From: Paraprevotella sp.
GTDB lineage: Bacteria > Bacteroidota > Bacteroidia > Bacteroidales > Bacteroidaceae
Reading direction: 5' to 3'
DNA length: 64,000 bases
Assembly: GCA_017937925.1 (NCBI GenBank)
Contig: JAGBCQ010000018.1
Span: forward strand, 62,001 to 126,000
Numbering within the stretch: the first letter of the stretch is position 1; each line of letters starts with the position of its first letter. This document shows, in pieces, positions 4,550 to 59,183 of this stretch. The notes below the pieces were generated by a model that saw nothing but the letters and a program-made list of their open reading frames with translations, was not told the DNA's origin and made no database searches. A program made the translations under genes and the position numbers.

Positions 4550-4709
4550 AACAACTGACGTCCGTACGAATATAGCATTTCGTGCGGACGTTTTTGTTTT
4601 TATTTACCTATGGCGTTGTCGTGTAGCATTTGCTTCACGCGTGTGACACGTTCGAGTCACATGTGTGATACGGTCGTGTCACATGCGTGACACCATCGGG
4701 TAACGACAA
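4550..4709 (+). repeat. Composite intergenic repeat, copy 1 (three 22-bp units)
   Basis: The element begins AACAAC, continues as the terminator hairpin, then a shared TTTTTGTTTTTA spacer, then a segment bounded by the inverted 7-mers TTGTCGT (4616-4622) and ACGACAA (4703-4709). Inside it are three tandem 22-bp units at 4636-4657, 4658-4679 and 4680-4701. Each starts CAC, has GTGACAC or GTGATAC in the middle and ends in GT. Unit junctions form palindromes such as GTGTCAC-ATGC-GTGACAC. The second copy lies at 41317-41432. Confidence 0.85.
4558..4601 (+). terminator. Rho-independent terminator after the secreted protein gene
   Basis: ACGTCCGTACGAA pairs with TTCGTGCGGACGT (one G-U pair) around a short loop and is followed by TTTTTGTTTTT. 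It starts 22 bases after the stop at 4536 and forms the left part of the composite repeat. Confidence 0.88.
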
Positions 4710-4812: not shown

Positions 4813-7155
4813 ATGAGAATACTATTGACATTAGCTTTAGCAATGGCGTTATTGCAAGTTAACGCACAGAAGGAGTATAAAATGGCGGGGCCTTACGAGA
4901 TTGTGGCTCGCGACGGACAGTATGCCCGCACGAAGGGGGGTAGCGAACGCGACATGTGGCAGGCATGGCAATGCGCCAAGGCCGGCGACGATAAAACGGC
5001 ACTGACCATTATAAATGCCTATTCAGCAAAGTTACAAGGATTTGATGGGCATGACGCTCCGCTCTGTACCATTCAGGCCTATTGGATGCTGAGGGCTATG
5101 ATAATACTCAAGGACCAGCAGACGCCCGAATGGGAAGCAATGGTGCGCAGAGCGATATTGCCGGTTCTCGAGAAGTTCGAAGCCGACAGTCCTTATGCTA
5201 ATGGCAATTGGGGTCACATCGTGAACCGTTGTCGCATGGCGGCCGCTATCTTCTTGGCCGACAAGGAACTCTACCGTCACGCCATAGATGTCTATCTGTA
5301 TGCCAATGACAATGGGTCGTTGCCCAACTATGTGTCAGAGACAGGACAGTGTCAGGAGACGGGGCGCGACCAAGGACACGCCCAGTTGGGATTAGGAGCC
5401 ATGTGCGAAATTTGCGAAATGGCATGGGAACAAGGTGATGACTTGTGGGGAGCATTGGACAACCGCCTGATGAAAGGAATGGAATACACAGCCCGCTACA
5501 ATTTGGGTTACGACGTACCTTTCGAAACGTGGAAGGACTGTACCGGTCTGTACAATGACTGGACGGAGCCCGGCTCTATGGGACGCGGTCGTATAAGGTG
5601 CATCTACGATTTGCCTTATCAACACTACGTCGGACGTAAAGGACTGAAGATGCCTTATACCAAGAAGGTGCTTGAATTGCAGAAGAAAGCAGAACGTAAA
5701 GGCAAAATCACGCGGAATCCCGAAGCCGACCGATTTGACGTGAAGGGGGTAGAGGAAGGAGCGAAGTTACATAGCATCACTACCTACGCCGCACCTGAGG
5801 GAGCACCGCTGAAGCACGACTACGATGTCTTTATCCAACCTCGTGGTCATAAGGAGTGGACGAAGATAGATACCTATATGGCGAAAGTGAGAGCTCTACA
5901 GAAGAATGGCAAACACCAAATTTCGGAAATCAGCTATTGTATGTTCGACTTTACGGGCGATGTGTTCGTCAAAGTGGTGTGCAAAAACAAAAAGTTTCAA
6001 TCAGCTCGCATTCGCCCGGACTATCGTGGTACAATAGCCAGCGTACTGAATGACTCAACCGTGAAGTTCCTATTGTTCCAACCCGAGAACGTCAGCGTGG
6101 AATTTGATGGCGACATCAGTAATAATCTGCTTGTCTTTACCTCCAAACCTACTATCAGCAAGGAAGAGGCAGAGGCAGAAGCTCGGAAGAATGGTCGTAA
6201 GTTCCAATATTACGCTCCCGGCATCTATCGGAAGGACACCATCCACGTCGGGTCAAACACCACTATCTATTTGGCCGGCGGTGCTTATCTGAAAGGTACG
6301 TTTGCTATTGAGGACGCCGAGAACGTGAGTATTTTAGGGCGCGGTATAGCCCGTCCTGAAAGGGGTTACGAGGGTTGTCACGTATATCGTTCAAAGAATG
6401 TTTTGATTGACGGACTGGTGCTGAATACCTGTCCCATCGGTGAGTCGCACAACGTCACGCTTCATGATGTGCGTAGCATTTCGCATCCGCAGTGGGGCGA
6501 CGGACTGAACGTGTTCGGTGGCTCAAGCAATATACTCTTCGACCGTGTCTTCTGCCGTAATAGCGACGACTGCACCACAGCCTATGCCACTCGCAAAGGT
6601 TTCAAAGGCTCGGTACGCAATGTACGCATGACCAACTCTACATTGTGGGCAGATGTGGCTCATCCCATTTTCATTGGTTTGCACGGCAATCCTGCTGTAG
6701 GCGACAGCATTGTAGGTTTGAAATACGACAACCTAGATATCATCTGTCAGGACGAATCACAAATTGATTATCAAGGCTGTTTGGCCATTAACTGTGGGGA
6801 TGGCAACTATGTAAAAGACGTCTTGTTTGATAATATCCGCATTGAAGGTATCCGTAAAGGTTGCATTACACAGGTGAAGGTAGGATGGAATCAGAAGTAT
6901 TGCACAGCTGCCGGAGCCGGAGTGGAAGGTGTGACGTTCCGCAATGTCCGTCTTTATGGTGAGCAACCTCATTTGTCCATCATTACCGGATACGATGCCC
7001 AACATAAGGTAAAGGACGTCACCTTTGAAGGACTGAAAATTAACGGGCGCGCCGTTTACGACGAAATGCCGGGTAAGCCCAAGTGGCACGTGACTAGCGA
7101 TTACGTGCCCATGTTCGTAGGTTCACATGTTGAAAATCTAAAGTTTATAAAATAA
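4813..7155 (+). CDS. Secreted alginate-lyase-like / GH28-like fusion enzyme
   Basis: A 780-residue protein with a signal peptide (MRILLTLALAMALLQVNAQ). Residues about 25-300 resemble the alginate-lyase superfamily alpha-toroid (PL5/PL38-like), including GQCQETGRDQGHAQ at 178-190. A beta-rich linker (about 310-440) leads to a right-handed parallel beta-helix (about 465-780), opening YYAPGIYRKDTIHVGSNTTI. The helix carries WGDG (Asp563) and NSDD (Asp585, Asp586), spaced as the catalytic aspartates of GH28 polygalacturonases; His617 or His624 could be the histidine. A lyase-type and a hydrolase-type fold in one chain would suit a uronate-containing polysaccharide. ATG 4813 is chosen because the in-frame TTG at 4762 lies before the -7 box and the signal peptide begins at 4813. 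The stop overlaps the next ATG by one base. Confidence 0.8.
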   Translation: MRILLTLALAMALLQVNAQKEYKMAGPYEIVARDGQYARTKGGSERDMWQAWQCAKAGDDKTALTIINAYSAKLQGFDGHDAPLCTIQAYWMLRAMIILKDQQTPEWEAMVRRAILPVLEKFEADSPYANGNWGHIVNRCRMAAAIFLADKELYRHAIDVYLYANDNGSLPNYVSETGQCQETGRDQGHAQLGLGAMCEICEMAWEQGDDLWGALDNRLMKGMEYTARYNLGYDVPFETWKDCTGLYNDWTEPGSMGRGRIRCIYDLPYQHYVGRKGLKMPYTKKVLELQKKAERKGKITRNPEADRFDVKGVEEGAKLHSITTYAAPEGAPLKHDYDVFIQPRGHKEWTKIDTYMAKVRALQKNGKHQISEISYCMFDFTGDVFVKVVCKNKKFQSARIRPDYRGTIASVLNDSTVKFLLFQPENVSVEFDGDISNNLLVFTSKPTISKEEAEAEARKNGRKFQYYAPGIYRKDTIHVGSNTTIYLAGGAYLKGTFAIEDAENVSILGRGIARPERGYEGCHVYRSKNVLIDGLVLNTCPIGESHNVTLHDVRSISHPQWGDGLNVFGGSSNILFDRVFCRNSDDCTTAYATRKGFKGSVRNVRMTNSTLWADVAHPIFIGLHGNPAVGDSIVGLKYDNLDIICQDESQIDYQGCLAINCGDGNYVKDVLFDNIRIEGIRKGCITQVKVGWNQKYCTAAGAGVEGVTFRNVRLYGEQPHLSIITGYDAQHKVKDVTFEGLKINGRAVYDEMPGKPKWHVTSDYVPMFVGSHVENLKFIK

Positions 7156-9044
7156 TGAGAAAAGTACTTTTACAGTTGGCACTTCTGCCCTTACTCGCAT
7201 TTGGGCAAAGTCTGTCGTCGCCCGATGGCAAATACGTTATCGGTATTGATGGGATGACTTACACGATAACCTATAATAATAAGGTGATTGTAGAAAGAAG
7301 TCAATTGGGCGTGGATATTGACAATCGTTTGTTCGAGTCGGCGTTGGCTGTGCCACGAGGCGAGAACGAGAATTGGTGTAGCGACTTGCAACTCAAAAGC
7401 GAGGAACGCATTACAGTGGACACTACATGGACACCACTCTATGGTGAAAACAATCGCATCCGCGACCACTATAATCAGTTGGTACTTCATTACGAGAAGG
7501 GGAGCAACGGACAAGGTGTTGTGAGCGATGGTTACGATAAACGCAAATACTATGCGATGGACATCGTGGTGAGAGCCTACAACGAGGGCATAGCCTTCCG
7601 CTACCATTTCCCCCAGGTCGCGAACAACCTGTTCCTACACGTCAAAGGCGAGCAGACATCGTTCAGAATGCCGGAGGGTACAATGGCATGGTACGAAGAG
7701 TGGGCGCAAGGACCATACATTAAACAGCCTTTAAATATAAAAAATGAAGGGTTTGAATGGTTTGAGAGTGAACGTCCGCTGTTGTTGCAAGTGCCATCGG
7801 GTTGCTACGTAGCGTTGTTAGAGGCGCAGATGAAGGATTACACTCGCGGAAAATTCCGTCTGAAAGCGGAAAATGAACTGCAAGTGGCGATGTACGATTG
7901 TGCCGACATCATATCGCCCTACTACACACCTTGGCGTGTGGTAATGGTTGGTGAGAAGGCAGTGGACCTTATCAATCATAAGGAAATTGTTTTGAATCTC
8001 AACGAAGAACGTGCTGACGCCGATTGGACATGGGTACGTCCCGGTAAGGCCTTCCGCAGTTGTCGCCTTGATAAGGAAAATATCATGCGGAGTATTGACT
8101 ATTGTGCGGAATTTGGTATCGACTATGTGGAATTGGATGCAGGATGGTATGGTCCTGAAGGTAGAGTGGAGAGCGATGCTCGCAAGGTTATTGAGACGCG
8201 TGACTTTACGATGCCGGAAGTATGCCAATATGCCCGTTCAAAAGGTGTTGGTGTTTGGGTGTATGTCAACCAACGCGCTCTTTATCGTCAACTTGACGAA
8301 CTGTTGCCGTTGTACCAGCAATGGGGTATCAGTGGTATAAAGTTCGGATTTGTGCATGTGGGCAACCAGAAGTGGAGCACATGGCTTCACAATGCCATTG
8401 AGAAGTGCGCCCGTTATCATATTATGGTGGACATCCATGACGAGTATCGTCCTACAGGCCTTTCACGCACCTATCCCAACTTGTTGACGCAGGAGGGTAT
8501 TCGTGGTAATGAGGAGATGCCGGATGCCGATCACAATACGTTGTTACCGTTCACACGCTATCTTTGCGGTCCGGCTGACTACACGCTATGTTATTTCAAC
8601 AACCGCGTGAAGAATACCAAGGGACACCAGTTAGCCATGGCGGCCGTTTACTATTCTCCGTTACAATTCTACTTCTGGTATGACGACCCCTTTGTGGACA
8701 AAGGCGAGGAGGAACTTGAGTTTTGGAAGGATTGTCCCACTACGTTTGACGAGAGCATTGCCCTCGATGGCACGCCCGGTGAATATATCATACAAGCCCG
8801 ACGCAGTGGCAACGAATGGTATGTGGGAGCAATGACGAACACTCAAGCGCGGACAATATCCATCCCGACTGACTTTTTACCTAAGGGCAAGTATGTGGTT
8901 GAAGTATATAACGATGACCCGACGTTGTCAACTCGAACAAAAGTGAAACGTGAACAAATGAAAGTGAAAGGTGGAGGCAAACCTATTGTTTTGCAATTGC
9001 AGCCGTCGGGTGGTGCCGCACTTCACTTTACACCTATAAAATAA
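7155..9044 (+). CDS. Glycoside hydrolase family 97 protein, probably inverting subgroup
   Basis: A 629-residue exported protein (signal peptide MRKVLLQLALLPLLAFGQ). It has the GH97 layout: N-terminal beta-sandwich (about 20-260), (beta/alpha)8 barrel (about 270-550) with YVELDAGWYGPEG and HDEYRPTGLSRTYPNLLTQEG, and a small C-terminal beta domain. GH97 enzymes act on alpha-glucosides or alpha-galactosides. In the retaining subgroup (BtGal97a) the nucleophile is Asp415 and the acid/base Glu470, 55 residues apart. Here Glu453 fits the acid, and the residue 55 before it is Gly398 (KFGF), so the nucleophile is missing as in SusB-type inverting members; Glu430 is a candidate base residue. The ATG overlaps the upstream stop by one base, suggesting translational coupling. 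Confidence 0.9.
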   Translation: MRKVLLQLALLPLLAFGQSLSSPDGKYVIGIDGMTYTITYNNKVIVERSQLGVDIDNRLFESALAVPRGENENWCSDLQLKSEERITVDTTWTPLYGENNRIRDHYNQLVLHYEKGSNGQGVVSDGYDKRKYYAMDIVVRAYNEGIAFRYHFPQVANNLFLHVKGEQTSFRMPEGTMAWYEEWAQGPYIKQPLNIKNEGFEWFESERPLLLQVPSGCYVALLEAQMKDYTRGKFRLKAENELQVAMYDCADIISPYYTPWRVVMVGEKAVDLINHKEIVLNLNEERADADWTWVRPGKAFRSCRLDKENIMRSIDYCAEFGIDYVELDAGWYGPEGRVESDARKVIETRDFTMPEVCQYARSKGVGVWVYVNQRALYRQLDELLPLYQQWGISGIKFGFVHVGNQKWSTWLHNAIEKCARYHIMVDIHDEYRPTGLSRTYPNLLTQEGIRGNEEMPDADHNTLLPFTRYLCGPADYTLCYFNNRVKNTKGHQLAMAAVYYSPLQFYFWYDDPFVDKGEEELEFWKDCPTTFDESIALDGTPGEYIIQARRSGNEWYVGAMTNTQARTISIPTDFLPKGKYVVEVYNDDPTLSTRTKVKREQMKVKGGGKPIVLQLQPSGGAALHFTPIK

Positions 9045-41316: not shown

Positions 41317-41432
41317 AACAACCGGCGTCCGTACGGATATAATATCTTGTACGGGCATTTTTGTTTTTACTTGCCTTAGGTCTTGTCGTGTAGCTATAGG
41401 CACACGCATGTGACACGAATGTGTAACGACAA
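41317..41432 (+). repeat. Composite intergenic repeat, copy 2 (one 22-bp unit)
   Basis: This matches copy 1 (4550-4709) from AACAAC through the terminator hairpin, the TTTTTGTTTTTA spacer, TTGTCGTGTAGC (41383-41394) and the closing AACGACAA (41425-41432). Only one internal 22-bp unit is present (41403-41424). The length is 116 bp against 160 bp in copy 1, a difference of 44 bp or exactly two units. Confidence 0.85.
41327..41369 (+). terminator. Terminator-like hairpin inside repeat copy 2
   Basis: GTCCGTAC pairs with GTACGGGC, extended by two wobble pairs, followed by ATTTTTGTTTTT. It is the decayed counterpart of the 4558 terminator and probably ends transcription from the sigma factor/small-peptide genes. 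Confidence 0.65.
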
Positions 41433-59004: not shown

Positions 59005-59098
59005 TAATTAGGTGTTAAAAAGGAGAAACTGTAAGTAAAAGACCGATTGTTTTTAATCAAGCAATAAATCCCTCAAAAGCGCGGTACTTTGCTCACAA

Positions 59099-59164
59099 AA
59101 ATTCCGGACGTCCGTCATCGCGACGCCGGACGTCTTGCGTTTCAACGCCGGACGTCCGGAATTT
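59099..59164. repeat. Palindromic intergenic repeat with 22-bp period
   Basis: A perfect 16-bp inverted repeat (AAATTCCGGACGTCCG at 59099-59114; its complement at 59149-59164) bounds the element. Within it the core CGGACGTC recurs at 59105, 59127 and 59149, exactly 22 bp apart, and both complete units end in ACGC. It lies between the promoter of the SusC operon and the terminator at 59184. No T-run follows on either strand. Confidence 0.8.
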
Positions 59165-59183
59165 CGCTGACTTCAGTATGGGT

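Follow-up and report, generated by a model that had tools for sequence, protein, structure and literature searches.

The current study describes arrays of palindromic 22-bp units that are dispersed among the Bacteroidales and that recur immediately upstream of genes for one subfamily of HU proteins. Two such arrays lie in the window, by which we mean the whole 64,000-nucleotide stretch of Paraprevotella sp. DNA that was analyzed. We consider it probable that the element is a tandem array of binding sites for an HU-family protein carrying a C-terminal winged helix (Pfam HU-HIG). HU proteins are DNA benders that are largely sequence-independent, and Bacteroidales genomes encode many HU-like paralogues that have no assigned role. 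For one HU subfamily, there is now a concrete candidate target, which is tied to promoters in its position, constant in its geometry, and specific to each paralogue in its code. The function of HU-winged-helix proteins is thereby directly testable, and the protein-site pairs offer material for reading DNA recognition. The protein family already has a Pfam name, and DNA-binding proteins that regulate themselves and have dispersed operators are a known kind of system; the unusual aspects are that the protein belongs to the HU family and that its sites combine a fixed geometry with a fast-changing sequence. A literature search that covered few subscription journals returned no description of a HU-HIG DNA site or of such arrays.

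Architecture of the arrays in the window

The two copies are laid out as follows.

4550..4602, + strand: terminator-like hairpin with T-run, 5' of array 1; 14-pair stem and T-rich tail
4603..4615, + strand: sequence spacer from the terminator to array 1
4616..4709, no strand assigned: array 1, 94 bp; TTGTC, four 18-bp palindromic units, GACAA
4621-4638, 4643-4660, 4665-4682, 4687-4704: units of array 1, in 22-bp steps
41317..41370, + strand: terminator-like hairpin with T-run, 5' of array 2; 80% identity to the first hairpin
41383..41432, no strand assigned: array 2, 50 bp; TTGTC, two 18-bp units, GACAA
41388-41405, 41410-41427: units of array 2, in a 22-bp step

The first-pass annotation had reported a composite repeat at these two loci, and both copies were indeed found at the positions and with the order of parts that it gave. 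The array ends are inverted (TTGTC/GACAA), and the flanking terminator-plus-spacer is of equal length, 66 bp, in each copy (4550-4615 and 41317-41382). The unit count required correction: when a unit is taken as an 18-bp palindrome plus a 4-bp linker, the copies contain four and two units rather than three and one. The summed lengths (5+4x18+3x4+5=94 for array 1 and 5+2x18+4+5=50 for array 2) preserve the reported difference of exactly 44 bp. Folded as single-stranded DNA, the 94 bp of array 1 gave z=-4.6, with 0/200 shuffles equally good, and the same shuffle comparison of the 50-bp array 2 was unremarkable (z=-1.6). The hairpin preceding array 1 folds strongly (z=-6.9) and its counterpart before array 2 more weakly (z=-1.5). 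Array 1 precedes window positions 4813-9044, which code for a protein resembling alginate lyases and for a GH97 glycoside hydrolase. The window also contains a third and different 22-bp array at 59100-59165, consisting of three CGGACGTCCG-type boxes between the inverted ends AAATTCCGGACGTC/GACGTCCGGAATTT; no HU gene is known for its dialect.

Copies in the source genome and its genus

In the genome from which the window derives (G000; 2.06 Mb in 33 contigs, 78.6% complete), the pattern CACRYRYGTG-N12-CACRYRYGTG occurs 16 times, as compared with 0 for the reversed control. These correspond to eight arrays containing two such pairs each, and thus four units, which together with the two-unit, 50-bp window copy bring the known arrays of this genome to nine. 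A search of the same genome with the terminator returned three matches, two of which are the window loci; the remaining one spans just 17 bp (E 0.79). We therefore reject the composite of terminator and array as what is dispersed, since it has two copies only. The outcome that would have refuted the first-pass annotation, just two loci, was accordingly seen for the composite and not for the array itself. In two copies (L002 and L003), homology ends sharply and is confined to the array.

Within the genus, CACRYRYGTG arrays were detected in 2 of 18 genomes, G000 and G007, and these same two genomes encode the strong members of the HU-winged-helix family described below. The one strong member of G000 (C13:5577-6164) is located about 60 kb from array 1 on the same contig, with an array immediately 5' of the gene and TATCTTTG preceding that array. 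Three weaker family members in the genus have no upstream array, and L304, scored alongside them by the upstream-array score described below, reaches 73. The G007 orthologue of the C22 array measures 50 bp rather than 94, i.e. it is 44 bp shorter. A separate observation concerns the arrays L006 (G000:C22:1649) and L007 (G000:C13:5441), which have common upstream DNA and paralogous upstream genes; the HU gene follows L007 only, and L006 looks like a duplicate of the L007 locus without its HU gene.

A constant 22-bp grammar across the Bacteroidales

Scanning GTDB genomes for three CAC-N4-GTG boxes at 22 bp yielded at least 120 loci. Bacteroidota were named in 71 of 80 titles among the loci listed, and 83 of the 120 loci listed had four units after extension by a relaxed rule. 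When the gaps were left free from 0 to 30, 72 of the 75 places among the matches listed for four named genomes had the 54-bp span produced by two gaps of 12; the other three, all in Prevotella vespertina, were 1 or 2 bp longer. The same pattern had 9 matches in P. distasonis, which lie outside those 75 places, and 103 in Phocaeicola oris, about half of them among the matches listed, and the reversed control had 0 matches in all five genomes. Across genomes, it is evident that array sequence varies while geometry stays constant. Inverted ends are common among the scanned loci as well. Of 20 arrays fetched from P. oris, 12 have four units, 4 have five, 2 have three, and 2 have six. Integral unit steps, as anticipated in the first-pass annotation, are therefore seen both here (three to six units) and as the 44-bp step within G000 and G007.

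Placement is largely intergenic, for 19 of the 20 P. oris arrays and for 89 of 102 scanned loci, with genes called in both sets by a crude choice of open reading frames. The 102 loci are what remained of the 120 once nine had been dropped by title and nine (after L158) by sequence alone. Gaps bearing arrays comprised 20 tandem ++, 14 tandem --, 17 convergent, and 16 divergent, versus 30, 28, 19, and 37 for other gaps, respectively, such that array gaps lean mildly toward the convergent arrangement at most. None of 13 stretches of viral contigs inspected by eye was a clear member of the array class.

An HU-family protein adjoins the arrays

Clustering of 500 proteins from the 102 loci identified one family as the most recurrent neighbor, at 10 of the 102 loci. 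In all ten, the gene adjoins the array and its start faces it. The family consists of HU-family proteins of about 200 residues. Pfam HU-HIG (PF18291) was matched by 9/9 proteins scanned, some of which also had helix-turn-helix matches, and the member from the window's genome scored 114.5 bits against this profile, which exceeds the curated score of 26.2. TIGR01201 (HU_rel) was likewise matched by 9/9, with the window genome's member (66.3) slightly below the cut-off of 68.6. An AlphaFold2 model (mean pLDDT 85.8, pTM 0.55) places three helices and two short strands after an HU fold, which would correspond to a helix-turn-helix plus wing as in winged-helix proteins. Its top matches among solved structures are HU-type proteins, the first being Bacteroides vulgatus BVU_2165 (4fmr), and a comparison with defense systems in PADLOC gave weak matches to the C-terminal part of the protein. 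HU-like profile matches number 18 in B. xylanisolvens. In four plasmid-collection records (L323, L325, L326, and L328), the divergent neighbors are annotated as BT4734/BF3469 family or as carrying a DUF3874 or VapE domain.

The identity of this neighbor bears upon an obvious alternative, raised in the first-pass annotation as a REP-like element with a built-in terminator: the array could be a MITE- or REP-like mobile element that is non-autonomous, with inverted ends and tandem units serving as transposase signals, in which case the copies at HU genes would stem from insertions that are frequent there or from the capture of a promoter piece. The sharp ends and array-confined homology of L002 and L003, the common inverted ends, the likely several dozen copies in P. 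oris (103 pattern matches), and the lack of arrays in most genomes of the genus all fit such an origin. Nonetheless, we regard it as an unlikely identity for the array, whose copies may still have spread by mobility. The protein that recurs beside the arrays is an HU protein, and no transposase was found among the recurrent neighbors inspected. The promoter-linked position at HU genes and the pairing of dialects with paralogues, both presented below, go beyond what insertion alone would produce, and no precise empty site was seen at L003, the single locus tested. When this locus was compared in 18 genomes, both flanking genes were found in relatives, and the intergenic DNA was not conserved. 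Target-site duplications were sought by eye only. As for the built-in terminator, it accompanies just two of the nine known arrays of the genome. The other reading offered at the outset, phased protein-binding sites, is by comparison well supported, since 22-bp phased palindromes recur 5' of HU-winged-helix genes in matching dialects.

The array is linked to the promoters of HU-winged-helix genes

The link between array and gene was quantified with a sequence-independent score that combined the presence of four palindromes at a chosen period with the identity among units, calculated over 430-bp upstream regions, with the threshold placed at the 99th percentile of 378 control upstream regions. 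At a period of 22, 39 of 49 HU-winged-helix genes exceeded the threshold, versus 1-3 of 49 at each of eight other periods and 3 of the 378 controls at period 22. Removal of four Bacteroides finegoldii orthologues left 35 of 45 above threshold. Ten of the 49 upstream regions fell below it, including that of the P. oris paralogue L253, which is without an array. Of 20 HU-HIG genes in which profile coverage and length indicated no winged helix, 2 exceeded the threshold (Fisher p 1e-7). The 49 genes (from 50 upstream regions, minus one that was N-masked) and the 20 were hand-chosen among the 111 matches to the profile that 18 genomes contained. Two short HU-HIG proteins lacking the winged helix, L287 and L288, nevertheless have strong 22-bp upstream arrays (scores of 74 and 71) and perhaps represent a second subfamily with such sites. 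Among the controls, 22-bp arrays were also noted 5' of other genes, in L155 near 6233 and in L120 near 1908 and 4459.

Because the genomes of the 49 genes had mostly been reached via arrays, 13 further genes were taken by protein similarity instead; plasmid records supplied 8 (of 14 records) and phage records 5 (of 5). Eight of these 13 exceeded the threshold. Five of the 13 (L324, L325, L327, L328, and L329) are orthologous or closely related to genes of the first set; among the other eight, three were above the threshold and one was equal to it. With a looser cut of 50, which was picked post hoc, the counts are 13/13 for the genes found by protein alone, thus including all eight non-orthologous ones, 45/49 for the first set, and 5/378 for the controls.

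The array at the HU gene sits between a promoter box and the start codon, and its distance from the box is a preferred one. A TAnnTTTG box, which we take to be the Bacteroides -7 consensus, starts 20-25 bp before the array at 27 of 42 HU genes and at 9 of the 13 that were taken by protein similarity, as compared with 93 of 18522 control positions (0.5%). Beside dispersed arrays, the box was present on 4 of 184 sides, and on 0 of 40 in P. oris. Since the array begins shortly after the -7 box, just past the expected transcription start, the protein is probably autoregulatory, repressing the gene that encodes it.

Array dialects match HU paralogues of the same genome

The arrays upstream of HU genes are diverse in sequence (e.g. 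GTTCCACTATAGTGTTCC, GTTTGACTTAAGTTAAAC, and GTCCACCCGCGGGTGGAC), and this diversity made it possible to pair dispersed arrays with HU genes by dialect. When 43 dispersed arrays were compared with 42 HU-gene arrays, 36 best matched the array of an HU gene from their own genome; 0/5000 label permutations reached this number, the largest being 25. The 43 include seven arrays of G000 and leave out L093 and L103, which are HU genes' own arrays, as well as L121, which is a duplicate, and L198, whose genome of origin was an assumption. By genome, own matches were the majority in 8 of 14, absent in 5, and split in 1, and P. oris alone contributed 20 of the 36 (20/20 own matches). In the window's genome, 6 of 7 arrays best match the own HU-gene array. 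Array 1 scores 16.2 against it and 14.8 against the next of the 42, and array 2, having two units, stood outside the dialect scoring. In two or three arrays of this genome, the cores do not resemble that of the known HU-gene array. The C20 array, of ATTTGC type, has a marginally better fit to a foreign HU array (15.5 versus 15.2), and the second C5 array is a weak fit (14.2). One possible reason for such poor fits is that a cognate HU gene is absent from the incomplete genome.

The HU gene of G007 has an array in a dialect other than that of G000, and two of the three dispersed arrays in G007 clearly favor the G007 HU array over that of G000; the third does so barely (16.5 versus 16.2). The orthologues of B. 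xylanisolvens and B. finegoldii have dialects in common. L252, a B. xylanisolvens paralogue with a non-CAC dialect, has partial extra copies in B. xylanisolvens, and full four-unit arrays of this dialect occur in B. finegoldii. The P. oris arrays are split between two paralogues, L218 and L238, and in B. caecigallinarum three arrays were assigned to one paralogue, L231.

It could be argued that the array is the operator of the HU gene only and that the dispersed arrays serve other regulators that use a similar grammar. In accordance with this, 5 of the 14 genomes lack own matches and one is split, and arrays do occur 5' of some other genes (3/378 controls, and the third array in the window, where the scan scored 63 at 59087). 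We find this explanation quite improbable, as the own-genome match is well beyond chance and the dialects within P. oris and B. caecigallinarum go to different HU paralogues (70 of the 111 profile matches in 18 genomes were covered). Dispersed arrays of the same dialect, both window copies included, are probably further sites of the HU-winged-helix protein.

It was also considered whether the winged helix could be the sole reader of the site. A Mantel test did not single it out: the HU domain and the winged helix both correlate with dialect, with partial correlations of 0.27 and 0.15, respectively. As both domains correlate, and the HU domain more so, either may be the one that reads the site.

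Inferred mode of action

The location of the HU-gene array between promoter box and start codon implies that it should be transcribed, and each window copy comes after a terminator. Both features would accommodate an array that acts as RNA, with tandem hairpins in 5' leaders or 3' regions controlling termination, stability, or translation. Selection for RNA hairpins should favor G-U pairs. Among the imperfect pairs of the HU-gene arrays, read in the transcript sense, G-T (94) is no commoner than A-C (87; p 0.66), such that RNA-type palindromes are unsupported. Furthermore, the period of 22 bp is constant across dialects, and a search of 17 array loci against Rfam at the gathering threshold returned three tRNA matches and nothing else. 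An RNA function is hence highly improbable. The near equality of G-T and A-C, combined with the fixed period, points to recognition by a protein on double-stranded DNA.

From the geometry of the sites and their pairing with HU genes, we infer the following mode of action. One protein dimer would bind each 22-bp palindromic unit, and since the four units lie about two helical turns apart, an array may hold four dimers along approximately the same side of the helix. Where the array precedes the HU gene, occupancy by these dimers would presumably exert the proposed repression, and at the dispersed sites it could shape the nucleoid locally or control neighboring genes. More tentatively, as a possibility that we would not yet call probable, Bacteroidales may hold an unrecognized class of sequence-specific histone-like proteins, in which each HU-winged-helix paralogue reads a private four-by-22-bp dialect, controls itself via one copy, and marks chromosomal loci via others, with several orthogonal nucleoprotein networks coexisting in one genome and diverging fast.

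Relation to known systems

The BrickBuilt MITE of Porphyromonas gingivalis (PMC4596501) is similarly intergenic and dispersed in a member of the Bacteroidales, with a near-equal unit length and a variable unit number. According to the accessible portion of that report, it is built of 23-nt units without spacers, reaches up to 22.8 units, has a long leader and tail, and carries IS5-like ends (GAGACCTT/AAGGTCTC). The present arrays differ from what is described there in having mostly four palindromic 22-bp units, TTGTC/GACAA ends in the window's genus, and the link to HU genes. On the basis of the ends and unit size given in that portion, identity with BrickBuilt is ruled out. REP elements tagged with GTAG or CGTC (PMC3733652) are likewise short palindromic extragenic repeats; the available part of the source describes each as one palindrome of 20-40 bp that carries an unpaired tag, with dimers being frequent and some elements having RAYT transposases. 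The fixed 22-bp four-unit arrays and the HU link found here are absent from that part of the description.

Regarding the protein, a related system is the P. gingivalis HU protein PG0121, which, in the excerpted account of its role at the capsule locus, binds and acts at a 77-bp inverted repeat and has its top affinity for loops and bulges (PMC3969353). It is thus an HU protein of the Bacteroidales that acts at an inverted repeat. The same account presents PG0121 as a classic 10-kDa HU without a winged helix and its target as one long inverted repeat, unlike the arrays of this study. The library entries HU-HIG (PF18291) and HU_rel (TIGR01201) describe the protein only, and the array-linked proteins match both.
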